Positions 4,170-57,610 of a stretch of DNA of 64,000 nt are shown one piece after another. Location: positions 1 to 64,000 of the forward strand of contig JABYQU010000076.1 in NCBI GenBank assembly GCA_022264855.1, given 5' to 3'. Below the pieces are notes generated by a model. It searched no databases and was not told the origin of the DNA. It worked only from the letters and a program-made list of their open reading frames with translations. A program made the translations under genes and the position numbers. Position 1 is the first letter of the stretch; the number at the start of each line of letters is the position of its first letter. Origin of the DNA: Lenzites betulinus (taxonomy: Eukaryota; Basidiomycota; Agaricomycetes; Polyporales; Polyporaceae).

Positions 4170-5767
4170 ATGCAGTCAAAAGTGTTATCGGACATCTGGA
4201 TCTCTTATAGGATTCTTATCAGTAGCCCACAGAGTAGCCCAATCTGTCGCATTTTGGGGGCATATTATTTAGATCAGACAGCACAGCTGTACTGGCATGG
4301 TATTCAGGATTACGTTGCACTAAACATCATGAGATTTGGTGGAGAAGTGACGGAGGTATGGAGGGAACACCTCAAAACAGCCCTCTGATGCAGTTGGTGA
4401 AGAATACATGAATGCACTGCTGTAAGCTGTGCTTAAGCATGTAGACCACCATTTGGGATATTCTGCCCATAACTCCATCACTTCTCCACCAAATCTCATG
4501 ATGTTTGGTGCAATGTAATCCTGAACACTATGCCAGTACAGCTGTGCTGTCTGATCTAAATAATATGCCCCCAAAACGCGACAGATTGGGCTACTCTGTG
4601 GGCTACTGATAAGGAGCCTATAGGAGATCCAAATGTCTGATAACACTTTTGAGCACATCTATTGGTAGCTATAGTATACACAGACAGCATGCAAAAAAGA
4701 GCAGGGCCATATCTATACAGGGTATAATATTATGGAGCAAACAAGCTGGGAGTGCACAAAATGTACAGCAAGCGGGCACGGAAGGGGTAGGCTGTTCTAA
4801 ATCATGCCAAGCTGGAAATATGTATGGATATGATGCCAGTACACACTGCACAGGCTTTCAAGGAAATCCATCAGGAACTGAGGGCCCTGGAGGGCGATCT
4901 ACTGGCAGGGAGGCAGGAGGAGGGGCAGAATACATGTGGATGGAATATCCTGAGAGTAGGCCCGTTTTAAAGGTCTGCTAAATACACGTCCAACGGTGTA
5001 TGGGGTGGAGTTATATGTGCCCTGGATCAAGAGCTATTGAGCAAACAAAATGGCTGCTTTTTGCGAAAATGCGAAAGGCCATATCTTCATCAATACAGCA
5101 TCGGGGGCTATGCAAATAGCTGTCCCAGAAAGCCCTGCGCTATAGCTTTCAAATGATATATTGATCAATGTAATAGGCCCAGAGGAACCAATCATACACT
5201 GCATGCACCTACCAGGACCTGCTGACCCCTGCCCTGGGTTCGCATTTTTGACTGCTTTTGGTCGGTTTTTAGCCCCCACAGAACACCCTAATATGTATCA
5301 TGATCACCACATATACATAGGGCACAAACTGGGGCAATAATGCACCCAGGGAGGCCAAAAGGGAGCCCCCAGGGGGTGGTAGTAGGCCCCTGCCCCATTT
5401 GGAAGCCAAAAAAGCGCCCATTAAGCGGTAAACAGGGACCTACAAGCAGGCACTGATTTTACAATCATTAACACCATCCCAAGCAGCTTTTAACAATATT
5501 AAACAATCTCAGGGCACATTTTACAACCATTAACAACATCCAAAGCAGCTTTTAACAATGACTAACATCATTTGACAATCCTAGGGTCCATTGTATAAAT
5601 GCGCTCTATTTAACAATCAATAACAACACTGTACAGATTAACAACCATCAATGGGTTTGTACAACACCTGGGGGCCAGATTAACAATAAACTATGGTGAC
5701 CACAGAATACACAACTTGTGCACCAGGTAGGTGGGCTATTGTAATACAACAGTGGTAACCACAAGTG
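4170..5767. mobile_element. Palindromic (foldback-like) element, copy C, truncated on the left
   Basis: This is a diverged relative of the 2,723-bp palindromes at 15380-18102 and 25391-28113. The right arm (4467-5767, about 1.3 kb) is essentially complete and ends in the family terminus CCACAAGTG. The central spacer is 4362-4466, 105 bp as in the other copies. Only about 190 bp of the left arm remain (4170-4361), so the left flank has been lost and no target duplication can be read. The outer ~300 bp of the right arm (AACAATC/TTAACAATC-rich) differ strongly from copies A and B, while the inner arm is clearly homologous. It carries no transposase. It abuts a MULE transposase remnant, which may be a chance neighbour. 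Confidence 0.8.
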
Positions 5768-10800: not shown

Positions 10801-11716
10801 GGACGGCACCGTCTGCGGCCTGGGTAAGGACATCAGTGATGTCATGAACGAGTGAGTCAATATCTGTGGGTGTGTGTAGCTCTTGTGAGCGTTCGTGAAT
10901 CCACCGTGCTACCCATTGCTGGGTCACGTTGTACTCATAGCACTCCCAGTCGGTCTCACGCCAGTTCCTTCTTGCCGGAGACTGTGCGAGCTGGGTTCCG
11001 AATTCGAGCTTGATTTCCACGCAGTGATGGTCACTGCCATGGCCAAAGCTTGTGTTGCAGTGTGTGACCAAGTCCTCCACCGTCTGGGACACGAAAGCGA
11101 GATCAAGAGTGGACCATGTGCCATGTGCATCCGACCGGTAGGTCGGCATCCCAGCTGGGAGGGCAAGCACGAGCTGAAAGTCTGCGAGAACTTGAAGTAG
11201 TGCATCTGCATCCAAACGCCGTGTGCGCTGTTGTGAATTGGTGCCCGACCACAGCGGGTGATGAAGATTGAAGTCTCCCATGAGGAGGACTCGAGAAACG
11301 GGAATGATGGGGCTGAGAACGGAGCGGAGAAAGGAGACGGAGCTCACTGAGCTTGGAGGATTGTAAACAGAAAAGAGGCAGAGGGAAAACGGAGCAGAAT
11401 GAAATGTAACAGCGCAAACATCGAGAGACTTGAGGGGGACTTAGGTGTACGAGTCAGACTGAAGGTGGTTGCTGACATAGATGGCGCTCCGAATGTGAGC
11501 GGGAGTGCCATGTTCTGCCGCGATGCTGGGAAGAAGCAGGTTCCACTTGGGCGAACAAAAACACACTCGCTCAGCAATATGAATGGGGAGCTCCTGCAAG
11601 CATAGTACATCCCAGCAGGATGGGTCAGTGGTGTTAAGAAGCGAGAGCACCACTTCCGGAGACCGCCTGCAGTTCAGAGAGAGGACTCGTAACCCAGAGG
11701 GAGCAGGTGCGCTCAT
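7895..11716 (-). pseudogene. LINE ORF2: endonuclease, reverse transcriptase, RNase H (two in-frame stops)
   Basis: One reading frame of about 1,273 codons is interrupted by TAA at 11443-11441 and TGA at 10018-10016. The N-terminal APE-type endonuclease shows LNCRR, LQEL, MGDFNLHHPLW and GSDHH motifs (about residues 1-230). The reverse transcriptase has GIPQGSPLSPILY and the catalytic YIDD near residues 655-695. A degenerate RNase H-like region follows (about 980-1140), then a C-terminal zinc finger CPTC-x7-H-x4-C. The start is taken as the ATG at 11716, which overlaps the ORF1 stop as ATGA; an upstream in-frame start at 11779 is possible. In a live element it would nick target DNA and prime cDNA synthesis from LINE RNA. 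Both stops fit single C-to-T changes (CAA to TAA, CGA to TGA). Confidence 0.85.
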
Positions 11717-12797
11717 TTCATCGCAGCCGCGCCAAAGGCGCGGCCAGATGGAGCGCAGAATGAGGGGTTGTAGTAGCATGAGCTGTTGTTGAAACGGGCA
11801 GCTACTTTTGCTTGCTCAAGGGCCTTGACCGGACACTTACTGTCGAAGGACTTATAAGGGCCATCACAGTTTGCACATCGCACCTTGATGTGCGGGCAGT
11901 GCCGGCCATTAGAGCACTTGGTCTTGGAGGGGCAGAGGCACTCCCTCAGAGCATGTGGGCCCGCGCAGCGGGCGCACCGAATGGTAGAAGGGGACGATGA
12001 AACGGAACACGCCTTGGCCGTGTGGCCAAAAGCTTGGCAGCGGTAACACTGCATGGGTGGGGGAATGAACTTACTAACTGAGCATAATGCCCCGCAGACA
12101 GTCAATGAGCTGTAAATGAGCTGGTCTGCCTCCGCGCGGCTGGGGACTGAGAATACTAGCGACCCATTGCGTTTGGCTGACGACCAGCCCCGCTCAGCAT
12201 GAAGCCAACGGAGGCCACGGAGGGTCGTCTTTGACGCTACAGTCCCCGCATTCTCATGCCACAGTGACTCAGCTGCACCGGGCGCGGAGGGATCAAATTC
12301 CGTCGGAACGGACGCAGCAATGAGCGTGAACGATTGGTGCTCGACACGGGCGCCCTGCAGGCTTTGCAGATGGGGCACCCAGCTGCCATCATGGCGGAAC
12401 AGAGAATCAGCCTGCTCTGCCGATGAAGCACGTACCAGGAGGCTGCCGTTCGCCAGGCGGCGAACACCGCGAACTCGCGAGCCTGTCAGGCCGACCACGC
12501 CGGACTTGTCCAGGGCGGCGTCGACCTCGTTCTTGAGCTGAGCGGCTGTGAGCTTGGCAAATGCCTCGCCGCGGTTGGCCTGCGGGACACCAATGGTGAC
12601 ATCCAGCCTGAGGTGTTGCGGGGAGTCCTGTGGGGTGCGGGGGCCCGGGAGGGCCACCTTGGCGGGGGTTGCGCGGGCTAGTGATACCGAGGACAGAGCC
12701 TTCTGTACAGATGATTGCACGATCTGTTGAAGCTCGCCCCGCAAAGACTCGACTGCTCGCTGCGTCGACAGCAGCGACGCCTGAAGGCGGGGTGTGA
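11713..12797 (-). pseudogene. LINE ORF1 (gag-like), 3' part with zinc knuckles
   Basis: This is the larger part of a gag-like nucleic-acid-binding protein. A central region (VTIGVPQANRGEAFAKLTAAQLKNEV onward) resembles the RNA-binding part of fungal LINE ORF1 proteins. It is followed by three Cys/His knuckles near the C-terminus (CYRCQAFGHTAKAC, CARCAGPHALREC, CANCDGPYKSFDSKC). The frame is open upstream to 12797, exactly where the 8-bp target duplication of the inserted element lies. Together with 31275-31518 it gives 1,329 nt (442 aa plus stop), an exact multiple of three when one TSD copy is kept. The stop codon overlaps the ORF2 start. Confidence 0.85.
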
Positions 12798-12805
12798 CAT
12801 CAGTA

Positions 12806-13548
12806 CACCTAAGGCAGGGCCCCCATGTATCTCTTAGATAGGTTGATCGCTCGTGGGAAAGTCATCTAAGGGATACACTGTCTCCGAGCGCTTGAGGGCC
12901 TGTCATCCAAATCGGGACACAAAGTTTCCAAGCCTCCCGCTTCTGAATTCCGGTCATTTCCCCAGTACTCCCCAGGTGGAGGATGTTCGTGTAATGGGCG
13001 TCCTGGGCCGCACAAATACTTATATTAGTGCCCGGTGCACTGTAAGTAATTTACAAGATAGCCAAAACAGCCCTACGCGCAGGTGAAGCCTTGTAAATGG
13101 CCCCCTTTTGCCCCATGACGCTCTGCAAACATTATTCAAAAGCTTCCGACAAATGTTAAATCTAACGTTTTACACGAGTTTTAGTTGAACAATCCACGAA
13201 ACCTTTGTACGAATGTTCACACGAACGTTTGAATGAATGTCAGATAAAACGTCAGTCAAACTGTTTAGACAAATATCCGAGTAAACCTTCAAACGAACGT
13301 TTGCGCAAACGTTTGCGGGCGCTCCCTGCCGTCGGGATGCCGCCGCACGCAGCGTTCGGGATACCGTGTACGCCGTCGTGGACGGTGCCGACGTCTAGCG
13401 CCCGCGCGCCCTCCCGTACTCGCCGTCCGTATATGGTAACAGGCTCCTCCATCCCGCGACCTCCCCTTACCGGCACGGCTCTGGCTCGCCCATTTTCCCT
13501 TCGAATACATCGTTTCTTTTTTCATCTGGTGCGCGTTATGTACAGATA
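12806..13548 (+). repeat. Left terminal inverted repeat of the 8-bp-TSD element
   Basis: It is complementary to 30533-31274. The inner ~400 bp (about 13140-13540) are almost identical between the arms, whereas the outer ~330 bp show many substitutions and small indels. Within 13160-13320 the words ACGTTT, CAAACG and CGAACGTTTG recur in both orientations, resembling subterminal transposase-binding repeats. Short frames inside (for example 13205-13717) occur identically in the other arm and are not genes. Confidence 0.85.
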
Positions 13549-13941
13549 CCCACAGAATGTGTCCCGGAGTTCGTTTGTATTCTATTGGGATGGATCTTCG
13601 CAATGTTCTGGAAACATAACCACCTGGAGTATGGAATATTATGTGGCTCCAATAGAATGTGTCGCAAAAATGTATAAGGAGCACGATAATGTGTCACAAT
13701 GCATTGAGCAACACTAAAACTTTTTTACACGACCATAAGCCCCTTTGGACGGATGCTTCGTATGTATCTCCCCGCATACAGCAGCCCATCAAAGTGGGTG
13801 CTATACCAGCTTCCCCCGGCTGGCGCGTTCAAAACTAGTGGCATATCTTGATTGCATAGCATGTATTTCATGTATAAAACGAGTATCGACGCCCCGCCGC
13901 CACTTTGAGATAGATAATAGCTGATATGTTTGAAACATTAC

Positions 13942-14652: not shown

Positions 14653-14948
14653 TGTAAGAATGACGGGGTAGGTGCCTTACTGGGCTCCTATCCCTTGGGT
14701 ACTCTGGTCCGGGCTCGTATTTGGGCTCGGCGTACTCGTAGGGATGGTGGAGGGTAGTAAGGACTTACCCTCCACCAGGCGCCCGAGTTCCGAATACTCG
14801 GGACACCGTACGCGGTGGCATTACATACATGCGGCTATCCGCGCGCTAATATGCGCGCGTGTACGTATGGTCCGATTCCGTATATTTTAGTTGTGCGTTT
14901 CGCACAACTAAAGGATCCTGTAGGAGCGCAGGATACGCGCTCCTTACA
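14653..14948 (-). repeat. 3' LTR of the Ty3 element
   Basis: This 296-bp repeat reads the same as 30177-30472 over its full length. Several perfect hairpins lie inside it, for example TTTAGTTGTGCG/CGCACAACTAAA and GGTGGAGGGTA/TACCCTCCACC on the plus strand. It begins TG and ends CA with the short inverted repeat TGTAAG/CTTACA. Confidence 0.95.
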
Positions 14949-14960
14949 CTCTCCCCCACT
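14949..14960 (-). promoter_or_regulatory. Polypurine tract of the Ty3 element
   Basis: On the element strand AGTGGGGGAGAG abuts the 3' LTR directly. This is the expected place and composition for the primer of plus-strand DNA synthesis in LTR retrotransposons. It independently supports the orientation read from the genes. Confidence 0.75.
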
Positions 14961-15292
14961 AGACCTGATCCCAGGTCTACAGCTGTATAGTAAAGAATAT
15001 AAATAGTATATATTTTTTTGAGGGCCACAAATAGCAGTGGCCATTACGCCTATGATACACAGAAGTCGTCGTGGCGTCCGACGGTTCATGGTAGGGGTCA
15101 CCGATAGGTGACCCTGCGTCTGGGTGTACGAACCGTGCTCGACGAGGCTGACGGTAAGAGGCGGCATGCCCGATAATATACTCATCCACCAATTTCGGTG
15201 GGGTTATGATTGTTGATTAGCCAATAGTAGTCGACGCAGGTGGGGCAGGCACCTGCGCGGTGATAGTATCATGGGCGGTGAACCACATAGGT

Positions 15293-18200
15293 TCACGACG
15301 CCATGGACGTAGCATCGTCGTAAGGAGGGGGAGCATCGCCTCCCGGCTCTCCTTGAGTCTCTTGACGAGCCCCTGCGTCCACTTGTGGTTGCCACCATAA
15401 TAATATAATCCCCCACCAGACTGGTGCACACCTCGTGTATTTTGTGATCACCACTTGTAATTGTTTAACGCTACCCCAGCCATTGTATTATAAGTGTCAA
15501 GTATTATATTATAAGGACCACCTATTGTACAATCCCTGGGCAGTTTGTTTTTGATACTGTGGGCGCGTATTTGGGATTGTACAATCCCTGGGCAGTTTGT
15601 TTTATATTCTGGCAGCTGTGCCTGGTTTGCGTTTATCCATTATACAATCAGTGCCTGCTTGTAGGTCCCTGTTTACCGCTTAATGGGCGCTTTTTTGGCT
15701 TCCTAATAGGGTAGGCATACCAAATGACCGCATTTGGGCGCTTTTTTGGCTTCCAAATGGGGCAGGGGCCTACTACCACCCCCTGGGGGCTCCCTTTTGG
15801 CCCCCCTGGGTGCATTATTGCCCCACTTTGTGCCCTATGTATATATGGTGATCATGATACATATTAGGGTGTTCTGTGGGGGCTAAAAACCAACCAAAAG
15901 CAGTCAAAAAAGCGAACCCAGGGCAGGGGTCAGCAGGTCCTGGTAGGTGCATGCAGCATATTATTGGTTCCTCTGGGCCCATTATGTTGATCAATATATC
16001 ATTTGAAAGCTATAGCACAGGGCTTTCTGGGACAGCTATTTGCATAGCCCCCGATGCTGTACTGATGAAGATATGGCCTTTCGCATTTTCGCAAAAAGCA
16101 GCCGTTTTGTTTGCTCAATAGCTCCTGATCCAGGGCACATATAAATCCACCCTATACACCGTTAGATTTGTATTTAGCAGACCTTTAGAACAGGCCTACT
16201 CTTAGGATATTCCATCCACATGTATTCTGCCCCTCCTCCTGCCTCCCTGCCAATACATTGCCCTCCAGGGCCCTCAGTTCCTGATAGATTCCCCTGAAAG
16301 CTTATGCAGTGTGTACTTACAGTATATCCAAACATATTTCTAGCTTGGCATGATTTAAAATGGCCTACCCCTTCCGTGCCCTCTTGCTGTACATTTGGTG
16401 CACTTCTAGCTTGTTTGCTTCATAATATTATATCCTGTACAGATATGGCCCTGCTCTCTTTTGCATGTTGTCTGTGTATACTATAGCTACCAATAGATGC
16501 ACTCAAAAGTGTTATCATACATCTAGATCTCTTATAGGCTCCTTATCAGTAGCCCACAGAGTAGCCCAATCTGTCGCGTTTTGGGGGCATATTATTTAGA
16601 TCAGACAGCACAGCTGTACTGGCATAGTGCTCAGAATTACATTGCACTAAACATCATGAGATTTGGTGGAGAAGTGACGGAGGTATGGAGGGAACACCTC
16701 AGAACAGCCCTTTGATGCAGTTGGTGAAGAATACATGAATGCACTGCTGTAAGCTGTGCTTGAGCATGTAGACCACCATTTGGGATATTCTGCCCATACC
16801 TCCGTCACTTCTCCACCAAACCTCATGATGTTTGGTGCAATGTAATCCTGAACACTATGCCAGTACAGCTGTGCTGTCTGATCTAAATAATATGCCCCCA
16901 AAACGCGATAGATTGGGCTACACTGTGGGCTACTGATAAGGAGCCTATAAGAGATCTAGATGTATGATAACACTTTTGAGCACATTTATTGGTAGCTATA
17001 GTATACACAGACAACATGCAAAAGAGAGCAGGGCCATATCTGTACAGGATATAATATTATGGAGCAAACAAGCTGGAAGTGCCCCAAATGTACAGCAAGA
17101 GGGCACGGAAGGGGTAGGCCATTTTAAATCATGCCAAGCTAGAAATATGTTTGGATATACTGTAAGTACACACTGCATAAGCTTTCAGGGGAATCTATCA
17201 GGAACTGAGGGCCCTGGAGGGCAATGTATTGGCAGGGAGGCAGGAGGAGGGGCAGAATACATGTGGATGGAATATCCTAAGAGTAGGCCTGTTCTAAAGG
17301 TCTGCTAAATACAAATCTAACGGTGTATAGGGTGGATTTATATGTGCCCTGGATCAGGAGCTATTGAGCAAACAAAACGGCTGCTTTTTGCGAAAATGCG
17401 AAAGGCCATATCTTCATCAGTACAGCATCGGGGGCTATGCAAATAGCTGTCCCAGAAAGCCCTGTGCTATAGCTTTCAAATGATATATTGATCAACATAA
17501 TGGGCCCAGAGGAACCAATAATATGCTGCATGCACCTACCAGGACCTGCTGACCCCTGCCCTGGGTTCGCTTTTTTGACTGCTTTTGGTCGGTTTTTAGC
17601 CCCCACAGAACACCCTGATATGTATCATGATCACCACATATACATAGGGCACAGATTGGGGCAATAATGCACCCAGGGGGGCCAAAAGGGAGCCCCCAGG
17701 GGGTGGTAGTAGGCCCCTGCCCCATTTGGAAGCCAAAAAAGCGCCCAAATGCGGTCATTTGGTATGCCTACCCTATTAGGAAGCCAAAAAAGCGCCCATT
17801 AAGCGGTAAACAGGGACCTACAAGCAGGCACTGATTGTATAATGGATAAACGCAAACCAGGCACAGCTGCCAGAATATAAAACAAACTGCCCAGGGATTG
17901 TACAATCCCAAATACGCGCCCACAGTATCAAAAACAAACTGCCCAGGGATTGTACAATAGGTGGTCCTTATAATATAATACTTGACACTTATAATACAAT
18001 GGCTGGGGTAGCGTTAAACAATTACAAGTGGTGATCACAAAATACACGAGGTGTGCACCAGTCTGGTGGGGGATTATATTATTATGGTGGCAACCACAAG
18101 TGCTGCGTCACCCATTTCGGTGACCGGGGCCGTGGTGGTGGGCGCAGCCTCGCCCTCCTCGACCTCCATGTTGTCGTTCGACGCGTGAGCTGGAGGGGGA

Positions 18201-20392
18201 GGAGCGGGGTTAGCGGCCGGAGCCTCGTTGGTAGCGGTCGACGTGGGTGTCGCCGCTATGTTTAGGGATTGGGGAGGGGGTACATTGACCACCTCCGATA
18301 CAGAGTGTATGCCGGGGAGAGCCGTGATAGGTTCCCCGGGAGTGATTCCTTCGCGAGCGGCGCGGGATCGCGCGGCCGCGTCGCGGTGCTCGTCTGCCCA
18401 CTCGATGGTGACGCCTAGTCGGGCGTACCAGAGTGCGACGTGAAACAGGGACAGCGCGTCCTCTGCGAAGCTGCCGGGATATGCCTGCGTGGTGCTCTTG
18501 GGGCTGACAGGGTACTGTCCCGTCAGAATGATGTGACGGTACAGGCCCGGCACTGAGAACAATACGTTCGTCAGCGAGAGCCACCGTCCGCGTTCAGACG
18601 GGGTTACACGGCGCGTCAAAGCGCGGCGACCCATCTGGTGGAACTCGACGTGGACCAGTTGCGGCCGACCGTCGGGGGCGACCGTCATCCACGACGGACG
18701 AGACGACGGGTAGTTCTTCATCCACTCGCGAAGCTCCTTCGCGGTGGAGTCCAGCCGTGGCTGCGCGAGCTTCACGTGCGGCTGCTGCTTGGAGCGATAC
18801 GGCCGTCCTGCAATCGGGTGGTCGTTGCGGGTGGTGGGCATCGGCAGATGCGCCGTGCTTGTAGGGATTAACCCCGGCGGCGTATATGCAGCCGGGTGGG
18901 GCTGGTCTACGGTGGGACCTGTCCGATTGGATGGGCCACCCGAGGGACCAGCTCGGTCGGGGTTCCGCCAGCTGCTCACCAAGACTTGTAATCCCCGCAC
19001 GCTGGTCAGTGCGGGGTTGGCGTTGACCTGCGCCAGCAGATGTTGTATGCGATGCCGCGCCTGACCCATGTCAGTGTGCGAGGCATCCAAGATTTGCCGG
19101 GCCTCCTCTTGAGTCATTGGCACGAAGTCGTACCAATGGTTGGTGAGCTTGGGGTCCGAGTTCGCCGGTGCGGCTAACTCGTCGTGGGGCCAGTTGGGGA
19201 TGAGCGACTGATGAGAGGCGGCAGTTGTGCCTGTCCACGTCATCGTGCCCGGGCGCGGAGGAGCTGGTACTCCTCGACGCGCGTTCCGCATCACTTGCCG
19301 ACTCGAAATACGCCGCGCCCGTTTGGCGTCGAACGTAGCCTCGTCTTCCGACGAGAAGTCGTAGTCGACCATGGGGTGCGGGGCCGGCTCTTCCCGCGGC
19401 GGCTCGATTCTTTGGGTCTCGGGCGACGTCTGCGTCGGCCGAGTCGTGGTAGACGATCCTTGTCGGAACATGTCAAATCCACGAACGTCCCCTGCTGATA
19501 TTGGCGGGGGAAAGCGGGACGACATGTCCTCGCGCCTATCCCCGCGCCGCACCGTCCTGTCCTCGTTGGGATGGCTGTAAGGTTGGTAACGAGCAGTTTC
19601 TGCTCGAGACTCCTGTTGTTTCTTCATATCCTCCAGCTGCTGCTGGAGTCGATCCTTCTCGTCTTGCAGATCGTCGTACCGCTCGCGCTCGTCGTTGCGC
19701 TCGCGACGGTACCGCTCCATCGTCTCACGACGCTCATCTGCGAGCTGCCGTGCCTCCTTCAACTGCTCTTGCAGTTCGGCTATACGCCGCTCGTTCTCCG
19801 CGGCGTCCCCTCCCTCCTTGGAGCGACTATGCTCCTCGAAGTACTGCCAGAACCGGGCTTGAAGCTGAGCTTGCACGCTCATTTGAGCTTCGCGCAGCGA
19901 TGGCTCCGACTGCGCGCCCCGAAGATGGCGGATGAACTCGGCGCAGATCACGCAGCCCGTCGTATGCGCGACGAGGAGCGGATGCTCTGCTACCGGTCCC
20001 CAGGCCAGGTTCATGCTCAGTGGCATGATGGGCGGCATCCCTGGCATTACGCCCATGGGAGCGACCTGATTTTGGGGCGGAGCAAACGCTGAGACCGACG
20101 CCCCATGTGCTTGAGGGTACGCGGGCGGGTACGCGTAGCCGTATCCCGGCTGCGGATATTGATTCGTAGGCGGTGTCTGCGTTGGGGCACCGCCGTACTG
20201 GTACTGGGCCGGATACGGTGCAGGATACCCAGCTACTTGCTGATGCACGGCTGGGGCGGCAGGATCCGGGAAGGCCACGTTTGGTGGCATGGCGGTAGAG
20301 GGGGGTGCTGGGCGATCCACTACCATTTCGGTAGTGGCGCTCGGGGGTGCGTTGAGGGGCGCGTGAGGCGGCTGGGATTGGTCCGGGTTCAT
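15293..20392 (-). pseudogene. Extra ORF (ORF3) downstream of integrase in the Ty3 element, split by palindrome copy A
   Basis: Two pieces, 20392-18103 and 15372-15293, join in frame when one copy of the 7-bp duplication CTGCGTC is kept: 2,370 nt, 789 aa. The N-terminus is rich in Pro, Gln, Tyr and Ala (repeats such as YPQPGYGYAYPPAYPQ). A strong coiled coil follows (about residues 195-275), then an acidic-basic linker and a more globular C-terminal half (NHWYDFVPMTQEEARQILDA; AEDALSLFHVALWYARLGV). Near the end is a PPPY motif. No transmembrane segment, zinc finger or enzyme motif was seen, so it is not an obvious envelope gene. It starts 323 bp after the integrase stop, on the same strand. 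Its function is unknown; a structural or RNA-binding accessory role is only a guess. Confidence 0.75.
15380..18102. mobile_element. Palindromic (foldback-like) element, copy A
   Basis: A 2,723-bp palindrome: left arm 15380-16688, spacer 16689-16793, right arm 16794-18102 (1,309, 105 and 1,309 bp). It begins CACTTGTGGTTGCCACC and ends with the complement, and is flanked by the 7-bp direct repeat CTGCGTC (15373-15379 and 18103-18109). Short direct repeats lie inside each arm, such as TGGGCGCTTTTTTGGCTTCC at 15684 and 15735. All frames are short (about 60-110 aa) and mirrored in the two arms, so no transposase is encoded. It disrupts ORF3 of the Ty3 element. A 7-bp duplication with very long inverted termini recalls Galileo of the P superfamily, but no sequence homology is claimed. 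Confidence 0.92.
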
Positions 20393-20715
20393 GGCGGTGG
20401 TGCGAGTGTTGAGGGCGAGTGGGCGAGTGAGAGAGTCGTAGTAAAAGCAAGAGAGACGAGTGTGAAGTTAGGCGAGCGCGAGCTGGCAATTCGCCAGTCG
20501 CAGGGTCGCGGAGCCACGCTAAGCGCTGGCTGAGCTCGAATCTGAGCTGTAATTACGCGACGCGTCGCGCGTAGCACATGTGACCGCGTGCGAGCGCTTG
20601 CTAGCAGGTGGCTGTGCTCGCGCCTTCAACGCCGGACGCACAAGTCCTTTTCTCCTTTGACGCCGCACTGGCTACACTCGCCGTATCGGCGTAGCTACTC
20701 CCCACCACACACGTA

Positions 20716-22071
20716 TTAGTGTGCGGCTGGTTTCCGGGGTAAGGCTCGCCATGAGCTGACTCCCATGAGCGTACAATACTCGTCCAACGCTGCGAGATCT
20801 TTACAACTCTCATACGGCTCCCAAGTATGGTCGCCCTGGGTCCACCGTACGTGAAACCGACATCTGGCGCCTTGCCACTCGTGGCCGACTATCTCGTCGA
20901 CCAACCATTCAGCGTCGTCGCTGAGCCCGAAGTCGTAGAAGGCTTGGGCATCGCGATGCGGGAATACCGCATCGTCGTTGGCTTCATGTCTCCTAAGTAG
21001 GGAGACATGGAATTTGGGATGTATTCGCCGCTCTCGTAATTCCGAGGGTAGGTCCAATACATAGTTGGAAGTGCGAGGTATGCACTCCAAAATCTTGTAT
21101 GGCCCGATGTATTTAGGCACGAGCTTGCGTGCTCGACCTTTGGGCACGGTTAGGTTCTTAGTCGAGAGATAGACTAAGTCTCCAATCTGGAACTCAGGTT
21201 CCTCCTGCCTATGCTTATTCGCATGGTAGGTTTGAGACACGCGAGCGTCGATTATGGCATCGTGCGCTATCTCAAGATTAGCACGAGCTCGCTGTGCGAA
21301 CTCGCGTACTCCCGCGAACGGAGTTTCCGTTCTGATTCCACTCATCGACCGAGGTAAATACCCATAGTTCAATTCGAATGGGGCAAACCCAGTAGTAGAG
21401 CTGGCGGCAGAATTCAATGCGAATTCTGCCAAGGGTAGTTTCTCGTACCAATCGAGTTGATTGGGCGATACTATAGCACGGAGAATCTGAGTAATTGAAC
21501 GAATAGTTCGCTCACTCAGTCCATCCGTTTGCGGGTGGAAAGAAGTGGACATGAGCAGCTTCGCGCCCATGAGTCTATGAAGCTCACGCCAGAACTTCGA
21601 CGTGAACTTGCTGTCTCTATCAGATACGATAGATTCAGGCAACCCGTGGAGTCGTACTACCTCTCGCAGATATACGAGAGATAATTCCGCGGCCGTGTCG
21701 GTCGTTCGTACAGGTATTAAGTGTACCATAGACGTCATGCGGCATACGACTACCCATACGTAGTCGTATCCGTGTGACAATGGAAATGGACCGACAAAGT
21801 CCATGGAGATCGAGACCCATGGGGCCAGGGCCAGGGGTAAGCTATGTAGTAGCCCCATAGGTAGTTGAGTGGACGACTTTGCGGTATGACATGTACCGCA
21901 AGTTATACAAAATTTATCTACGTCTTTGCGTAGAGTCGGCCACCAAAACCAACGTCTGAGATACTCAGACGTGCGTTGCGGACCGAGATGTCCCAACGTA
22001 CTGTGCGCGCGATCAATCACGATCTCGTGTAGTGATCGTTTGTTCAATAGAACCCGGGGTAGGCATAACAC
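20716..22071 (-). pseudogene. Ty3 integrase with C-terminal chromodomain
   Basis: About 451 codons. The N-terminal HHCC zinc-binding module (H-x-HLGPQRTSEYL...CITCGTCH) is followed by the catalytic core with D in SISMDFVGP, D in IVSDRDSKF and E in HPQTDGLSERT, then a C-terminal chromodomain (AEWLVDEIVGHEW ... FHVRWTQGDHTWEPY). The chromodomain is expected to steer integration to particular chromatin. The frame is offset from the RT frame upstream. The overlap region 22073-22082 contains a tandem 5-bp repeat (GAGGC GAGGC on the coding strand), and a single unit would make RT and integrase continuous. I therefore read it as the integrase part of one pol frame broken by a 5-bp duplication. Confidence 0.9.
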
Positions 22072-24296
22072 AGCCTCGCCTCGCGGTTCTTGGAGAAAAT
22101 CAACCCATCGCGAGTGGCGAATGCGCTAAACTGAGATGGTTTAGCCATAATTTTGCCAAACGTCTTGTCCGTAACATATCCGTTACGGACGGCTTTCATG
22201 AACCCATCTTCGTTTTCGAAGTGGGTGCGCAGTGAGGGGCCGGACGCTAGCGACATCGCTAGCGTAGGGTCGTCAGGCGACGTTGGTTCAGATGTAACCT
22301 CAGCCGCTGGAGCGTGTGTGGCATACCGTGCGCTCTCTATGACTCGCTCCTCCACTGGCTCCGGCAGCGTGGTAGCTGTCGGCTTCGCTTTTGCTGGGAG
22401 AACGACTTTGTTCTTCGGGCGTGCTACTGGCGCCTCGTCATCGGAGTCACGATAACGAGCAGGTTTCCGAATGACTCGTCCAGCTCGTATCTCGAGCAGA
22501 CGACTCTGAGGTAGATCGTCTCCCTCAGGATCTAATCGCGCGTCAGCGTTCACGACGTCGTATTCCGGCGTCGTGTCATGCAAGGAGTCCATCTCGTAGT
22601 ATCGAGATAGACAGTCCGCGACTTTGTTGAGTCGCCCAGGTACGTAGGTAATATCGTAGTCAAATCTGGCTAGGTATTCGTACCAACGAATCTGGCGACG
22701 ATTCGGATTCTTGACTCCTTTCATAAATTCTAGGGCCTTATGGTCAGTTACGATACGTAACTTGCGGCCGAGAAGTTTATCCTCCCATTTCAGGAGTCCT
22801 TCCATTATTGCAAGGGTCTCTTGCTCGTACGTGTGATATGCACGCTGAGCACTGGTGAACTTCTTTGATAGAAACCCAGCGGGACGGCAAGTTTGCCAGT
22901 CCTCGCCTTGGCCGTATAAGGCCCCGATTCCAAACAGTGAGGCGTCGCATATGAGCCATATCGGCTCACTGCGGCGCGGGTCTATTGGTCTCAGTATGGG
23001 GACCTTGCACGCTAGAGTCTTAATGGACTCGAAGCATTTCTCGTGCAAGGCTCGCCATACAAAAGGTCTATCGTTGTGTACCATCTCCGAAAGCGGAGAT
23101 GTGTATGCCGATATATCTGGCATGAAATGGGCTAGGTAATTCACTAGTCCCAGAAACCGCTGGACTTCATTGTAAGACTGCGGGGTTCTCCAGTTACGGA
23201 TACGGCTCATCTTGTCTGTATCGGCGTGCAAGCCGCGGTCATCTATGCGATGACCTAAACAGTCCAGATCCTTAGAATACAAGTCGCATTTCGACTTGCT
23301 AAGGAATAGTTGTGCCTTTCGAAGCTCGTTAAACACCAATTTCAGGTGTTTCTCGTGATCTTCGATAGTATCCGAGAAGACGAATATGTCATCGAGGTAT
23401 ACGTGAACGAATCGGCCTATGAATTCACGAAATATCGTGGTCATTAGCCTTTGGAATGTAGAGGGTGCGTTTGTGTCACCCTGCTGCATTACTTCGCTCA
23501 CGAAGGTTCCGAAAGGAGTGGAAAATGCGGTTTTCCAGATATCCTCCGCTACGATGTGTATTTGCTCGTACGCGTCGGATAAGTCGATCTTCGAGCGGTA
23601 CTTCGCTCGTGCCACATCCATCCGGATCTGATCTTGATCCGGAAATGGCGTAAGATCATGTACAGTATTGTCATTGCGCTGTCTTGCGTCAATGACAGTT
23701 CGAAGTTTGCCATTTTTCTTCGCTACGCATAGTAGCGGAGCTGCTTGTGTGACCGTAGCAGGTCTCCACCAGCCGGCCTTTACATACCGGTTGATCTTCG
23801 TAAGAAGCTCATCCTTGATCGCCTCCGCGCATCGCGGTAGGTGATACTTGTATAGTTTTTTCTCATCAATCAGCGGAATACGATGATTGATCTCCCTATA
23901 CGGTGGTAGAGTCTCAGGCGCAGGACGCATTATGTCCTCCGTCTCCTTATACCACCGTTCTCGGAGCCTATTCAGCTCCTCTTCAGATTCATCTATGACA
24001 AATCCGACGTGTGTCCGTCGGATTATTTCATCCTCCAGCTGCTCTTTCGCTATCTGGTCGAGCATCTCGTGGATGCCGAATGGGTCTTTGCCATAGTTGT
24101 TGACCAATTTCGGTCTCGATTGTGAATGTACGGTAGGTACACTACGTTCTCGTATGTCGGGAACAGCGGCATTCGCTGCCCGACCTTGATGTCGTACCGG
24201 AGTTACGACGGTTTCGCCGTCGTTCCCTCCCCCTTCCGGTGACATACTAGTCATCGCGTAGCGGGTTTGGGGAGGCTCCACCTTGGTGGATTCCAC
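22044..24296 (-). pseudogene. Ty3 reverse transcriptase and RNase H
   Basis: About 750 codons. After an N-terminal linker the RT domain shows TVIDARQRN, FSTPFGTF and the catalytic YLDDIFVFSD. The RNase H follows with DASLFGIGALYGQ, YEQETLAI and TDHKALEFM, then a connection region to integrase. The frame is the same as that of the upstream gag-protease ORF and is separated from it by a single TAG (24308-24306). The listed start is a GTG and is unlikely to be a real initiator, so expression probably came from a gag-pol precursor. At the C-terminus a 5-bp duplication shifts the frame into a stop at 22044. Confidence 0.9.
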
Positions 24297-24305
24297 TACG
24301 CTGTG

Positions 24306-27300
24306 CTAATACGCCGCACGCTGGCTGGCGTATTTGCCTCCTTCAATGAATAACGGGATCTCCTTCCCATTCATCACTACTCGGTTCTTCGCGAAGTCGA
24401 GAACAACGCCATATTGACGACAGAATACGGTGCCTAATATGGCATCGTATTTGTCAATATCCACGACGTCGAAATAATGCGTTTCGCATATATTTCCGAG
24501 CGCTATTGACGCTTGAGCCCCGAAGTTTATCTTCGTGCGGCTGCCTTTGGTGCCCAACTGTAGGCCCATTGGCTCCTTCAAGTCGATACGACTTGCCTTG
24601 CACAAATATGCGAACTCCGGAGTGATAGAGTCCGTGGTGCATCCGGAGTCAAAGAGCACTAAGCCCTTGACTCCGTTGATCGGGAGCTCGGCACATAACG
24701 TGCGTTGCGTATCCAGCGTACGTGCTGGTTGTGCCTGCGGATCCTCGATGCGCCGTACTTTGGCGTCATACATCCACGCATGTCTCGCAGCACGGTCTTG
24801 CCCTACTGCCATGCTGTGGATGTGTATCGTATCCGATACTTCATCGGCCAAAGGTTCTATGCGCATTCCTGCGAACTCCAATTGATCGTAGTGATCATTG
24901 GTATTGAACACTTCTTCGTGCTCTGATTCATACTGAGATCCTCCCCAGCCATATTCTGACTGAGGGTAATCCCCTACGACTTGCAGGTCGGTTTCGTCCT
25001 CTACCAGAGCTTCATCCTCCTCTGGTTCGGGTACATGGTCATCAGCCACGCCGACTTGCTCGTCGTGCGCGGCCTGTTCATGGTCGGACGTATCGTCCAA
25101 TACTCGTTGAGCAAACATGCGAGGACCGGAGTGGTCGCGTTTGCCCACATTCGGACAGACTGGATCGGACGCGAAATGTCCGATCTGTCCACACGAATAG
25201 CAAGTCTGCGCTGCTTTGGTGGCGGCCTGCTTTCCGTTGGGACGATTGTTCGGGTGAGGCACGTTACGTGTCTTGTCCCCAGACGGACCTCCGGTGCGAG
25301 GCCGTCCTTGTTCGGCAGGCTTAGCCGCGTAGTGCGCAGGCCGTGAGACCAACGTAGGTTGCGTCGGTTTACTCGGAGGAGCAGTTTGCTCACTTGTGGT
25401 TGCCACCATAATAATATAATCCCCCACCAGACTGGTGCACACCTCGTGTATTTTGTGATCACCACTTGTAATTGTTTAACGCTACCCCAGCCATTGTATT
25501 ATAAGTGTCAAGTATTATATTATAAGGACCACCTATTGTACAATCCCTGGGCAGTTTGTTTTTGATACTGTGGGCGCGTATTTGGGATTGTACAATCCCT
25601 GGGCAGTTTGTTTTATATTCTGGCAGCTGTGCCTGGTTTGCGTTTATCCATTATACAATCAGTGCCTGCTTGTAGGTCCCTGTTTACCGCTTAATGGGCG
25701 CTTTTTTGGCTTCCTAATAGGGTAGGCATACCAAATGACCGCATTTGGGCGCTTTTTTGGCTTCCAAATGGGGCAGGGGCCTACTACCACCCCCTGGGGG
25801 CTCCCTTTTGGCCCCCCTGGGTGCATTATTGCCCCAATCTGTGCCCTATGTATATGTGGTGATCATGATACATATCAGGGTGTTCTGTGGGGGCTAAAAA
25901 CCGACCAAAAGCAGTCAAAAAAGCGAACCCAGGGCAGGGGTCAGCAGGTCCTGGTAGGTGCATGCAGCATATTATTGGTTCCTCTGGGCCCATTATGTTG
26001 ATCAATATATCATTTGAAAGCTATAGCACAGGGCTTTCTGGGACAGCTATTTGCATAGCCCCCGATGCTGTACTGATGAAGATATGGCCTTTCGCATTTT
26101 CGCAAAAAGCAGCCGTTTTGTTTGCTCAATAGCTCCTGATCCAGGGCACATATAAATCCACCCTATACACCGTTAGATTTGTATTTAGCAGACCTTTAGA
26201 ACAGGCCTACTCTTAGGATATTCCATCCACATGTATTCTGCCCCTCCTCCTGCCTCCCTGCCAATACATTGCCCTCCAGGGCCCTCAGTTCCTGATAGAT
26301 TCCCCTGAAAGCTTATGCAGTGTGTACTTACAGTATATCCAAACATATTTCTAGCTTGGCATGATTTAAAATGGCCTACCCCTTCCGTGCCCTCTTGCTG
26401 TACATTTGGTGCACTTCTAGCTTGTTTGCTTCATAATATTATATCCTGTACAGATATGGCCCTGCTCTCTTTTGCATGTTGTCTGTGTATACTATAGCTA
26501 CCAATAGATGCACTCAAAAGTGTTATCATACATCTAGATCTCTTATAGGCTCCTTATCAGTAGCCCACAGAGTAGCCCAATCTGTCGCGTTTTGGGGGCA
26601 TATTATTTAGATCAGACAGCACAGCTGTACTGGCATAGTGCTCAGAATTACATTGCACTAAACATCATGAGATTTGGTGGAGAAGTGACGGAGGTATGGA
26701 GGGAACACCTCAGAACAGCCCTTTGATGCAGTTGGTGAAGAATACATGAATGCACTGCTGTAAGCTGTGCTTGAGCATGTAGACCACCATTTGGGATATT
26801 CTGCCCATACCTCCGTCACTTCTCCACCAAACCTCATGATGTTTGGTGCAATGTAATCCTGAACACTATGCCAGTACAGCTGTGCTGTCTGATCTAAATA
26901 ATATGCCCCCAAAACGCGATAGATTGGGCTACACTGTGGGCTACTGATAAGGAGCCTATAAGAGATCTAGATGTATGATAACACTTTTGAGCACATTTAT
27001 TGGTAGCTATAGTATACACAGACAACATGCAAAAGAGAGCAGGGCCATATCTGTACAGGATATAATATTATGGAGCAAACAAGCTGGAAGTGCCCCAAAT
27101 GTACAGCAAGAGGGCACGGAAGGGGTAGGCCATTTTAAATCATGCCAAGCTAGAAATATGTTTGGATATACTGTAAGTACACACTGCATAAGCTTTCAGG
27201 GGAATCTATCAGGAACTGAGGGCCCTGGAGGGCAATGTATTGGCAGGGAGGCAGGAGGAGGGGCAGAATACATGTGGATGGAATATCCTAAGAGTAGGCC

Positions 27301-30071
27301 TGTTCTAAAGGTCTGCTAAATACAAATCTAACGGTGTATAGGGTGGATTTATATGTGCCCTGGATCAGGAGCTATTGAGCAAACAAAACGGCTGCTTTTT
27401 GCGAAAATGCGAAAGGCCATATCTTCATCAGTACAGCATCGGGGGCTATGCAAATAGCTGTCCCAGAAAGCCCTGTGCTATAGCTTTCAAATGATATATT
27501 GATCAACATAATGGGCCCAGAGGAACCAATAATATGCTGCATGCACCTACCAGGACCTGCTGACCCCTGCCCTGGGTTCGCTTTTTTGACTGCTTTTGGT
27601 CGGTTTTTAGCCCCCACAGAACACCCTGATATGTATCATGATCACCACATATACATAGGGCACAGATTGGGGCAATAATGCACCCAGGGGGGCCAAAAGG
27701 GAGCCCCCAGGGGGTGGTAGTAGGCCCCTGCCCCATTTGGAAGCCAAAAAAGCGCCCAAATGCGGTCATTTGGTATGCCTACCCTATTAGGAAGCCAAAA
27801 AAGCGCCCATTAAGCGGTAAACAGGGACCTACAAGCAGGCACTGATTGTATAATGGATAAACGCAAACCAGGCACAGCTGCCAGAATATAAAACAAACTG
27901 CCCAGGGATTGTACAATCCCAAATACGCGCCCACAGTATCAAAAACAAACTGCCCAGGGATTGTACAATAGGTGGTCCTTATAATATAATACTTGACACT
28001 TATAATACAATGGCTGGGGTAGCGTTAAACAATTACAAGTGGTGATCACAAAATACACGAGGTGTGCACCAGTCTGGTGGGGGATTATATTATTATGGTG
28101 GCAACCACAAGTGGTTTGCTTCCTCCGAGTGGAGAGGTCCTTCGTAGGGCGCGTCACCGTAGTTGAAGCGACCGTATTATGGCCTTCACGGGCACGCCTG
28201 CGCATCTGCATAGCGCGCGTATTCTGCTCGATATCCAGAGCAGCATGGTACAGGTCGGTCAAGGTATTGTATTTAACGGATAAGCCGTTAACTACCGCTA
28301 TCACATGCTCGAAACTCTCGGGCAATGCGTCAAGGAACTTGGTCCTCATCTGGTATCGTGAAGGGCGCTCCCACATCCTGTCGGATATGTATAGTAGCCG
28401 TTCATACAGAGCGGCTACTCCTCCCTTGCTAGCGTCGTATTTCAGACGTTCAAATTGCTGGGCCGCGTAGAGGTAATTATCCCGATGGATAAACCGGCGG
28501 AACAGCCCGATTACGGCCTCGGAGAAGAGCCAGTTTCTCTTCTCGCGAGAAGTGGACTGCACCGTGTTGTAAAACCACAGCGCCGCCTCGTCCGTGAGAC
28601 TCGAGCTGAGCAGACGTAACCTGTCTGCATCCATGCTGTCTCCGGTGATGCGGAGAGTATGGAAATACTCCAGTAGCCCGCGGAGCCACAGCTCGAACTC
28701 GTCCAGATTGTCTTTGCCGTCATACGATTTCGGCGGCGGCAACTTGGACATCTTGAGATAGGCTGGGGGAGGAGAGGTAGCCTCCTCGCTTACCATCTCC
28801 TCAATCATGTCCAGCAATCGCTGGACGCCAAAACTATCTCGCGCGATAGGACTGGGACCCGTATACGCCAACTCGGGTACATCATGTGCCGTGTTGGCAT
28901 CGCGCTCATTATCGGGGCGGGCGTAGTGCATCCCGCCCATGGCTGAAGGGGCCATCGACCGACGAGGTCGTAGTCCTGGCATTGCAGGAGGAAGCGTAGG
29001 GCCCGTAACTCCCGCGGCATTCAGGCCTCTGGTAAGAGGCGCGGCCGCGTCGGGCCAGGCGTTCGTCCTGGATATGGAACCGTAACGCGGTTCCTCCGGG
29101 TCGAACACTACGTTCCTGCGAGGCATCGCATTCGATGCTCCGCCTTGACCGATAGGTCTCGGTGTCGACTCAAACGCCGGCTGCGAACGTCTACGTTCTA
29201 TGTCGGATTCACTGAGTCCAGCCTTCTTCAGTCGTTCGCGCCGGCTGGCTTCCCAGCGACGCTGTTCGTCCATTTCCGCCTCGAGATCTGGGGCTGACTC
29301 GTATCCGAGTAGCTCGTCTTCGACCTCGTGTTCGTCGCCAGCAGCTTCACCTGCTGGCAGCTCGACATCGCTGTCCATTTCGGACCTATTCGGTCCATGC
29401 CCGTCGGATCCATGTAATATGGTCAGGCCTGTAATGTGGCCAGCCAGCTCGTCTTCTGCGTCCAATATCTGGTTCCGTAATTCGCGGAACCGGGTTGCAG
29501 ACCGCTGCAGTGCGCTGAGCAGCTCGAGCGAGGTTGATGGGGCAATGGAGTCGCGACGATGTCGGTCGCGAACGCCTTGCCACCGTTTGCTGACCTTCGC
29601 TAGACCTTTCGAGTCTAGCGACAGCTGGGAACTCCTACTTGCTGACCTCGGCAATTGACTCGCCGCTGGCCGCGGCGATTCCGGGCCTCGTACTGAGCCA
29701 ACCACGATACTACGTGGTTGGCTGACGTATTCCAACGACGGGGAATCCGCGCGCATAGACGGCGGGCCTGTCCGAGTCACTGGAGGGGGCATAACACTCG
29801 TATGCGAGTGAGCTCTTGACGGCGCACGAGAAACGTTCGCTGCGGGGCGTACGGTCGTCTCGACCGGCACGTTTACATTCTCGGAACGCGAAGTTACGTT
29901 CCGAGTCCGTCGCGCGCCCGCAAGCGGGTGTGAGTACACTGGCACGGGGGGGGTGTTGCGACGTGGCACGCCAGCACCGATATCAGTGCATGGCGGGAGG
30001 GAAGAAGCTCGCGGGGGGGAATTAGGCCTACTCGGCCGCTTGCTTCCGGAACCTGGCGCGGATTCTTCCAT
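24306..30071 (-). pseudogene. Ty3 gag-protease ORF, split by palindrome copy B
   Basis: Pieces 30071-28114 and 25383-24306 join to 3,036 nt (1,011 aa) with one copy of the 7-bp duplication GTTTGCT, an exact multiple of three. The N-terminus is a long Pro/Ser/Arg-rich region. The gag capsid-like domain starts near residue 438 (SYDGKDNLDEFELWLRGLL ... FLDALPESFEHVIAVV). A CCHC-type knuckle (CYSCGQIGHFASDPVC) follows the insertion point, and a retropepsin-type protease with LVLFDSGCTTDS and later DAILGTVF lies near residues 890-980. The frame ends with TAG directly before the RT frame. In the intact element it would form the particle and process the polyprotein. Confidence 0.9.
25391..28113. mobile_element. 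Palindromic (foldback-like) element, copy B
   Basis: A 2,723-bp palindrome with arms 25391-26699 and 26805-28113 (1,309 bp each), a spacer at 26700-26804 (105 bp), and a 7-bp duplication GTTTGCT at 25384-25390 and 28114-28120. The arms agree everywhere I compared them, which points to a recent event. Length, spacer and termini match copy A exactly. It interrupts gag between the capsid-like domain and the zinc knuckle. Frames in the arms are mirror copies and non-coding by appearance. Confidence 0.93.
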
Positions 30072-30176
30072 TTGGAAGGATGTCGAGTTGTTTATGGCAG
30101 ATGTTGTTGATGATTGATGACGTGGTAACGTCGAGCCCCAAATATGGGCGTGTAAGTATCACGGAGAGTAAAAAAG

Positions 30177-30472
30177 TGTAAGAATGACGGGGTAGGTGCC
30201 TTACTGGGCTCCTATCCCTTGGGTACTCTGGTCCGGGCTCGTATTTGGGCTCGGCGTACTCGTAGGGATGGTGGAGGGTAGTAAGGACTTACCCTCCACC
30301 AGGCGCCCGAGTTCCGAATACTCGGGACACCGTACGCGGTGGCATTACATACATGCGGCTATCCGCGCGCTAATATGCGCGCGTGTACGTATGGTCCGAT
30401 TCCGTATATTTTAGTTGTGCGTTTCGCACAACTAAAGGATCCTGTAGGAGCGCAGGATACGCGCTCCTTACA
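30177..30472 (-). repeat. 5' LTR of the Ty3 element
   Basis: Identical to 14653-14948. The sequence just inside it on the element strand (CTTTTTTACTCTCCGTGATAC) does not start with TGG, so no conventional tRNA primer-binding site is visible at this position. The flanking GATAT at 30473 completes the target duplication. Confidence 0.95.
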
Positions 30473-30532
30473 GATATATTGTTTGTATTGGCAGTGATAC
30501 TAAGAATATAGTCTTCGGAACGCCTAGGTAGA

Positions 30533-31274
30533 TAGCTGTACATAGCCCGCACCAGATGAAAAAAGAAACGATGTATTCGAAGGGAAAATGGGCGAGCCAG
30601 AGCCGTGCCGGTAAGGGGAGGTCGCGGGATGGAGGAGCCTGTTACCATATACGGACGGCGAGTACGGGAGGGCGCGCGGGCGCTAGACGTCGGCACCGTC
30701 CACGACGGCGTACACGGTATCCCGAACGCTGCGTGCGGCGGCATCCCGACGGCAGGGAGCGCCCGCAAACGTTTGCGCAAACGTTCGTTTGAAGGTTTAC
30801 TCGGGTATTTGTCTAAACAGTTTGACTGACGTTTTATCTGACATTCATTCAAACGTTCGTGTGAACATTCGTACAAAGGTTTCGTGGATTGTTCAACTAA
30901 AACTCGTGTAAAACGTTAGATTTAACATTTGTCGGAAGCTTTTGAACAATGTTTGCAGAGCGTTATAGGGCAAAAGGGGGCCATTTACAAAGCTTCACCT
31001 GCATGTAGGGCTGTTTTGGCTGTCTTGTAAATTACTCACGATTTATTGGGCACTGATATAGACGTTTTTGCGGCTTGCGATGCCTCTTACATGAGTATCC
31101 TGCACCCGGGGAGTACTGGGAAAACGACTGAAATTAAGAAGCGGGAGGCTTGAAACTTTGCGTCCCGATTGGGATGACAGGGCTTAACGCGCTAGGTGGG
31201 AGAGTATCTCTCAGATGAGTTTCCCACGAGCGATCAACCTATCTAAGAGATACATGGGGGCCCTGCCTGCGGTG
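30533..31274 (-). repeat. Right terminal inverted repeat of the 8-bp-TSD element
   Basis: Complementary partner of 12806-13548. The inner part matches the left arm almost base for base. The outer ~330 bp differ by scattered changes. It ends at 31274 and is followed by CATCAGTA. Confidence 0.85.
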
Positions 31275-52120: not shown

Positions 52121-53861
52121 TCGGACGCCGTCCTAGTCGACAGCTACAACTACAGCCAGCACGCTGGCAGCACATCTCCCCGCGCGCGACGAAGCGGCCG
52201 CCGCTGTCGGTCCACTCTACGACTCGGAGTGGGAGCACGTCCGCCCGACACGCGGCGCAGACGCACACCCACTGTCACGAGGCCCACACCCGATCCTGCA
52301 TCCTGCTCCCGCTCCTGGCCCTCCCATAGCCCGCGGCGGCAGCGCCCACGAAACAGGCGAGCATACAACTTCGCCCGCCCCACGAGCGGGCTTCCATCAC
52401 TTGCAAGTGCCAGTGTGCATCCCCATCCCGCTTGGACGAGCTTCAGAAGAACTCGAACGCCGCGCCGCGGCAGAACGCGGACGCACGCGCCTCCCGCCCT
52501 GTGCCCGAGAAGCAGAACCAACTTGAAGCGCGGCGGGCAGCACCCCACATCCAGGACCGAGGAGGCCACGCACCGTCCGCGTCGCGTCGCGGACGCGCCT
52601 CCAAGCTTCAAGCCTCAAGTCCTCCATATAATATTCCAAGCTCCTGGCGCGGGGCCCGGCCGCCGCCGCGTTGTGGGGCGTAGCGCGGCGATTACATATA
52701 CATATGCTGGTGCGCGTGCTGGTGCTGGCGTAAGGGGCCTGCGGTTCGCGCTTCGTCGTGCGTCGTGCTGTGTGCGCGTGCGAATGGGAACGCGAAGGGG
52801 CACCCCCGTTGTGGGCGGATATCTGCGAGCGGCGTACGCCGTACAGGGAAGGACGCACGTACGTACGTACGTGTGTATCTGTGCACTGCTGCGCGCCTCC
52901 GTGCTTCGTGGCGTATGCGCGTGCGACCAGAGACGCGGACGCGGATGCGAGCCCGCTGTGCAGTCCGCGCCCGCGGGTCTCTGCGACTCGAGGGGGACGG
53001 CGAATTCGGGCGCACGTGCATATAGGTGCGCTGCTGCGCACCCAGCTGGCGTGGGCACGACACCAGACTTGCAGAGACGAGCGTATACAACGGCCGATCC
53101 CAGTACTGGCCCGCTAGTCGGGCGGACAGAGCCCGGGCGGCTGAGAGCAGGGCCGGGGAACGGGACGGTGGGAGCGCGAAGCGGGTTAGCCGCAGTACTA
53201 GAGACTAGTAGCGGGGGAAGCCTCGCGCACGCAGCTTATCTAGACGTTATAGGGTTCGTATCGTGTCCCAAGGATCCGGACTGGCACAGCTGCAGGCAGA
53301 GCCCGAGCGCGAGTCCGAGTCCTGCAGATGTGAACTGTGTGCCCGGAAAGCGAGCCTGGGGCGTCCTGGAGACGCACCTGTATACGTAGCGGTAAACGGT
53401 GTACGGTGGACACCTGTTCACATGGACAGAGCGTATCAGGCCACGCCTGTCACTACTGCATTACAGCCCGGCGCGTCTTGTCACGTAGAGTTCCTGGTAC
53501 TGCTGGGAGCCGCGTCCCGTCCCGGGCGCGAGAACCCCACGGCCACGGAAGCGCAGCGCAGCGCCGTCTAAACGCAATGTGCGTATTCCAGGCGCGGACG
53601 CGAGCAGGTGCGTGCTGTGGGGAACCCTCCGAGTGCGAAGGCGGAGGTGAGTGCGAAGACGAAGGCGAAGCCCAAGATAGACTGTATCCCGAGCTAGCTT
53701 GAGTGCTTCTCGCGGGGCCCCACGCCCAAGATAGACTGCACTTCGAATTCCACGCACGCATGCGCCCAAGTGCTCTAAACGCGTCCACGACGCCTTCGAC
53801 TGCGCATGCACAGTGGCGCCGCGATACTCTAGGATATCCTCAGGCTCCAGTACACCGGGGC

Positions 53862-54784: not shown

Positions 54785-54997
54785 TTGCAGGGCCCTCCGG
54801 GCAGACCTGGACTACGGGAATCTACACGCAGCGGGCAGTACAACAGAATAACAGGTAGTGCAACAGAATCACAACAGCGAACGCTGACAGCATCAGTATC
54901 GGTACTCACCTCGCCGTCAACATCTACCGTTCTGTAACTGCTTCTTGTCGACACATCTCTCATCGCTATATTGCATACCATCTGCAACTCTGCTATC

Positions 54998-57114: not shown

Positions 57115-57610
57115 CATTTGTGACTCTCACCTGTTGCTCCTGTTTAACTTTTTGTCTTCACAGTGCTGCACTGTTGGGCTAGGGATACAGACAAGAGAAA
57201 CAGTGCATATCTCTCGCGGCTGAGTAGGAGCGCTGCATACAATCTGGTATAGCACGATGTGGTGCTTCAGAACTATATGCGAGTTGTCGGTCAACTGAGA
57301 GGTGTATGGTACTCCGAGCCGGTTTCCAATTGGCAACGCCACCTTCTCCCGTGTCAGCACGTACCGCCGCCATTTCTACAACATGAACCTTACCAGCCAA
57401 TGCACGGTTTACCAGATCAACACGCCATACATACAACTCAAACGACGTCAGCGCTGGCAGCCACGAGCGTCCCGCGTAGTCCATGCCGCATGCTGGAACA
57501 CTCGGGAACGGGGCCTAAGACCGTAAGGAACATCGCATGGTTGCGGCGCCGTCACGGTCGTGAGCACACCTCCTCATTCACTCTATGGATGCATACACCT
57601 TATACGCATC

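Follow-up and report, generated by a model that had tools for sequence, protein, structure and literature searches.

The 64,000-nucleotide window analysed here (positions 1 to 64,000 of contig JABYQU010000076.1 of the polypore Lenzites betulinus) contains two nearly identical palindromic elements, A and B, together with a diverged relative, C (Table 1). The initial annotation described A and B as palindromes with 105-bp spacers, and remeasurement returned the same dimensions. Each has two 1,309-bp arms (17 mismatches between the arms in A, 12 in B) and the termini CACTTGTGG/CCACAAGTG, and A can be told from B by 5 differences. The target-site duplications (TSDs) of 7 bp claimed for both are exact on both sides. 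An independent repeat search recovered arms of 1,322 bp with 98-99% complementarity, and the length and identity of the arms in both copies are far beyond chance. The inverted arms account for 2,618 of 2,723 bp, the structure that defines foldback elements. Copy C had been taken for an older truncated relative, which agrees with its missing left part and its divergence from A (94% identity across 1,251 bp of the core and 77% in the final 74 bp).

Table 1. Positions of the palindromic elements and of their host retrotransposon in the window
Feature	Position	Strand	Remarks
Palindromic element, copy A	15380..18102	+	2,723 bp
Left 7-bp target duplication of A	15373..15379	+	CTGCGTC
Right 7-bp target duplication of A	18103..18109	+	CTGCGTC
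Spacer of A	16689..16793	+	105 bp
Palindromic element, copy B	25391..28113	+	2,723 bp
Left 7-bp target duplication of B	25384..25390	+	GTTTGCT
Right 7-bp target duplication of B	28114..28120	+	GTTTGCT
Spacer of B	26700..26804	+	105 bp
Copy C	4170..5767	+	older, left-truncated relative; other end subtype (CACTTGTGGTTACCACTGTT at right end)
Long terminal repeat (LTR) retrotransposon hosting A and B	14653..30472	-	identical LTRs, protein domains, GATAT target duplication

The palindromes seem to have no coding capacity, as first proposed. Six-frame scans of A matched no Pfam family at E 0.1 or below, the longest ATG-initiated open reading frame (ORF) encodes 114 aa, and no Rfam family reached its gathering score anywhere in the window. 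On these scans neither coding content nor known RNA content was found in the palindrome.

A and B are nested in a single LTR retrotransposon, since its two LTRs (14653-14948 and 30177-30472, 296 bp each) are identical, have TG...CA ends and are flanked by GATAT at both outer sides. This host element occupies most of the interval 15380..28113. Its minus strand encodes, between A and B, a CCHC gag-type zinc knuckle, an aspartyl protease, a reverse transcriptase, an RNase H and a Tf2-like integrase, the integrase core match lying below its curated cut-off. Empty sites exist for both palindromes. The full 200-bp joined-flank query for A matches 18 places in the genome (identity 98-100% at 17 of them and 91% at the other) with one further partial match, and the full query for B matches 6 places at 96-100%. 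Because such sites are found, the insertions of A and B were precise and occurred later than that of the retrotransposon, whose LTRs are still identical.

The family was located throughout the genome (37.4 Mb in 108 contigs) by its ends, its core and a degenerate terminal pattern. This pattern has 71 matches, including C66:157134 and C22:328565, as compared with 0 for a reversed control. Thirty-one two-ended palindromic copies are present (A, B and 29 others), in line with the proposal of a foldback-type family with 7-bp TSDs, and three more copies have a single recognisable end. Tabulated TSD lengths extend the 7-bp rule to other copies, with an exact duplication at 21 of the 29. The remaining eight comprise one with a single mismatch (C51), two with 6 bp (C50 and C22_55423) and five without a match (C22_65301, C12, C31, C40_6139 and C86). 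When copies with the same flanks are counted as one site, 20 independent exact 7-bp sites remain, 19 from palindromes and one from the large C63 element described below. Inverted ends combined with a TSD of fixed length are what is expected of a cut-and-paste DNA transposon with terminal inverted repeats (TIRs). The third base 3' of the duplication is C at 17 of the 20 sites (2e-6 for this one column, assuming 33% C and uncorrected for 27 columns). A G occupies the mirrored position at 10 of the 20. Together the two positions hint that the preferred target may be symmetric.

At least five end subtypes occur, and some elements carry two unlike ends. The ends shared by A and C63 are 72% alike to those of subtype III over 109 bp, as compared with 90-95% for the core across subtypes. 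Judged from these alignments the element is compound, with approximately 350 bp of end sequence joined to a 2-kb palindromic core that is common to subtypes with unlike ends. The initial description of A and B as almost wholly inverted repeat is right for these compound elements.

A search for an autonomous copy with the same ends, suggested at the outset, led to a single 13,688-bp element (C63:104256-117943). It has terminal repeats of 359 bp with 1 mismatch, the duplication ACCGCGG and a gene for a protein with CxC5 and CxC6 cysteine clusters, the putative transposase. From left to right it consists of the left repeat, about 11 kb of sequence, a 2,023-bp palindrome (11316-13338, 97%) and the right repeat. 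The 359-bp ends match those of A, and A as a whole aligns to C63 positions 1-359 plus 11316-13688 with a 9-bp overlap. Six-frame Pfam scans of the coding part place CxC5 and CxC6 above cut-off and otherwise give only EF-hand matches below it. When the splice junctions were searched one by one, GT-AG joins were open at 5 of 5. No empty site was found for the C63 flanks. The genome contains six CxC6 genes, and the five besides that of C63 are diverged relatives; at the C38 locus the extra upstream DNA has no matching end and by eye resembles a dehydrogenase-type host gene. C63 is the likely autonomous partner of the palindromes. Its right part also contains a 410-aa ORF (L032:1570-2802, minus strand) with homologues in Lenzites betulinus only (2 proteins including itself).

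The relationship between C63 and the palindromes could be read in two directions. If the palindromes arose by internal deletion from a C63-like autonomous element in which a palindrome was already present, A should look like two C63 ends joined at a short repeat, and they do meet at a 9-bp repeat (GCATTTGGG, C63 351-359 and 11316-11324) as a microhomology deletion would leave. This origin is compatible with C63 being the partner and is a possibility of some weight, which we nevertheless place second. The C63 core lies within the diversity of subtype I: it differs by ≤0.1% from C64, C73 and C51, by approximately 2.5-2.8% from A, B, C50 and C70, and by 4.5-8% from other subtypes, and is consequently nested in the diversity of the family. 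In addition, an inverted copy of C63 positions 360-419 is present at 11258-11314 (88%), and the palindrome thus seems to have split a terminal repeat that was once longer. We favour capture of a palindrome by C63, as this arrangement would suggest.

The arms of each element have apparently been homogenised by gene conversion in place. Arms were compared in 22 elements, one per insertion site, which leaves out of the 31 another 7 copies at sites already represented, 1 truncated copy and 1 that lacks the spacer. Core differences between the two arms of an element have a median of 0.26% (mean 0.64%), against a median of 6.91% between elements, and this disparity is not expected if arms changed independently, since the distances would then be alike. 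Five chosen pairs of elements display the same pattern site by site. In four of them, the only variable sites are 65-75 positions at which the two arms of one element share a difference from the two arms of the other; the fifth has 64 such sites and 6 others. Differences between arms increase toward the centre (1.52% at positions 1000-1309 versus 0.05-0.53% in the other segments).

Four copies (C64, C73, C92 and C51) represent one insertion, with flanks that are 98.7-100% identical. Compared with C64, C73 has one changed site in a single arm, and C51 has 22 changed sites that all fall in one arm. In C92 the changes affect both arms, at 9 sites between positions 432 and 1146, and are mostly toward C50; outside this tract the copy is C64-like. 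Within the tract, a C64-like state occurs at a few sites and gaps at several. We interpret these same-site copies as different stages of in-place conversion, cautiously because they carry indels. In A, a left-arm patch of 5 sites (447-513) is most similar, among the arms listed (one of which had no overlap), to the right arm of C92 (1 of 72 differing), which does not fix the donor.

The near-identity of arms might instead be an assembly or polishing artefact, or each transposition might renew the arms by way of a hairpin intermediate, conversion in place playing no part. The many copies with perfect arms would fit either process, and indels in C92, C73, C51 and C22_55423 suggest that the sequence is imperfect there. 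We regard this as improbable, because the 12-32 arm differences kept in A, B, C54, C15 and C51 indicate that such differences are not erased in general, and because one-armed and two-armed patches occur among copies of a single insertion, for which a new transposition is not needed.

The CxC5/CxC6 protein of C63 is probably a transposase. One homologue has a predicted structure similar to those of DDE enzymes with an RNase-H fold, in which CxC6 is located within the core and the D, D and E residues are invariant; it is this combination of a DDE-like fold in the model and an invariant triad that points to the assignment. Foldseek returned nothing for the predicted model at E ≤ 0.001, and neither did a viral fold library at the same threshold. 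A sequence search of the PDB gave one match, to yeast guanine deaminase (E 0.0017), which we judged spurious.

Pfam describes the CxC5/CxC6 cysteine clusters as "associated with KDZ transposases", which would fit the alternative that a canonical KDZ transposase (PF18758) made elsewhere in the genome moves the palindromes, with the CxC5/CxC6 protein of C63 as an accessory or a passenger. PF18758 has 77 matches in the Lenzites betulinus genome. Kyakuja elements have 7-bp TSDs and CA..TG ends (PMC12730594), features also seen in the Lenzites palindromes, and a weak motif match (YD..C, V..FH) links the CxC5/CxC6 and KDZ families at E 0.023. Six-frame scans of the C63 element, however, contain no PF18758, and among the matches listed PF18758 occurs in 0 of 120 CxC5/CxC6 homologues and CxC5/CxC6 in 0 of 120 KDZ proteins. 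The profile comparison of the two families is not significant (E 0.15), and the modelled CxC5/CxC6 protein appears to have a DDE-like core of its own. We therefore rejected C63 as a canonical KDZ element, and consider mobilisation by a KDZ enzyme made elsewhere to be unlikely, slightly more so than an artefactual or hairpin origin of the arm identity. A hAT origin was also considered: neither C63, scanned against Pfam in six frames, nor any of 30 scanned homologues showed a hAT family.

We have good confidence in the overall interpretation, in which A and B are non-coding, non-autonomous, foldback-like palindromic cut-and-paste DNA transposons that depend on a CxC5/CxC6 DDE transposase and whose arms undergo conversion in place. 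The protein, with its CxC6 zinc cluster inside an RNase-H-like core, would recognise the shared ends, excise the palindromes and insert them through 7-bp staggered cuts. Gene conversion in place would then keep the two arms of one element alike, and a patch from another element might enter one arm and later appear in the other. A broader proposal is more tentative, and we would not yet put it on an even footing with its negation. CxC5/CxC6 proteins, rather than being KDZ accessories, could constitute a DDE transposase superfamily in its own right, present in mushroom-forming fungi and their relatives, whose members make 7-bp duplications and have the CxC6 zinc cluster as an insertion within the catalytic core. 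Such enzymes would mobilise palindromic parasites with arms rewritten in place by gene conversion, one core passing between unlike-ended subtypes and into an autonomous element.

If the palindromes are mobilised in this way, a widespread and unexplained fungal protein family acquires a likely job. A published puzzle also becomes testable, namely what brought a CxC5/CxC6 fragment into a meiosis gene in oyster mushrooms of a sporeless line. In sporeless Pleurotus ostreatus, MSH4 is interrupted by a mobile fragment of 6,792 bp that contains a CxC5/CxC6 ORF, and its authors reported no KDZ transposon within the expected distance and suggested the involvement of a Copia retrotransposon (PMC7641404). 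Terms for TIRs or TSDs are absent from the accessible portion of that account. The insert may be a relative; if the separate superfamily exists, it would be a transposon of the same kind.

The stretch of the retrotransposon around the A site has a near-identical copy at no fewer than 17 other places in the genome. An inverted repeat of 743 bp (92%) lies just outside both ends of the retrotransposon (12806-13553 / 30528-31274). A direct repeat (53862-54784 / 59814-60829) has copies approximately 6 kb apart with 96-98% identity, and six-frame Pfam scans of 53800-60900 identify a deaminase similar to OTT_1508 (E 2.8e-6) and, below cut-off, a flavin reductase.

Among the matches listed, which for two of the queries were 12 of 440 and 20 of 25, a palindromic family of this kind was not met in the literature. 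The initial lead pointed to Galileo of the P superfamily, which likewise has 7-bp TSDs (a few of 8 bp), giant TIRs, many non-coding copies and subfamilies (PMC4168063). The 7-bp TSDs of the Lenzites elements agree with the 7 or 8 bp of the P superfamily, but this feature is not specific. Galileo also has a P-type transposase and the target consensus GTATTAC (PMC4168063), whereas the Lenzites TSDs have no such consensus and the C63 partner with the same ends encodes a CxC5/CxC6 protein, with no P-element, THAP or hAT domain in six-frame Pfam scans. A Galileo-like identity is thus very improbable, and the lead was abandoned.

Kyakuja, which resembles the palindromes in its duplications and ends, differs in being described without TIRs, and the same source lists hAT7 as a hAT group with a 7-bp TSD (PMC12730594). 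The Cryptococcus KDZ1-3 elements are large like C63 (approximately 9-11 kb), with TIRs of 139-241 bp and TSDs of 8 bp or 4-8 bp (PMC12810828). C63 differs from KDZ elements in lacking PF18758 and in encoding a protein without significant profile similarity to KDZ, and no palindromic derivatives were seen in the excerpted Kyakuja and Cryptococcus KDZ1-3 accounts (PMC12730594, PMC12810828). An Agaricus bisporus element is different again, with TIRs of approximately 93 bp and a 9-bp TSD (PMC10051438). Foldback elements such as Tm1 Mutator/Foldback of nematodes consist, as the palindromes do here, largely of long inverted repeats, although the transposase superfamily and the host are other ones (PMC3169594). 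Sex-chromosome palindromes have arms that gene conversion keeps >99% identical, and they differ in being chromosomal and not transposons (PMC8981503). The mobile palindromes of Lenzites offer a natural series in which copies that share an insertion site may reveal stages of arm-to-arm gene conversion, and this series bears on how genomes maintain long palindromes.

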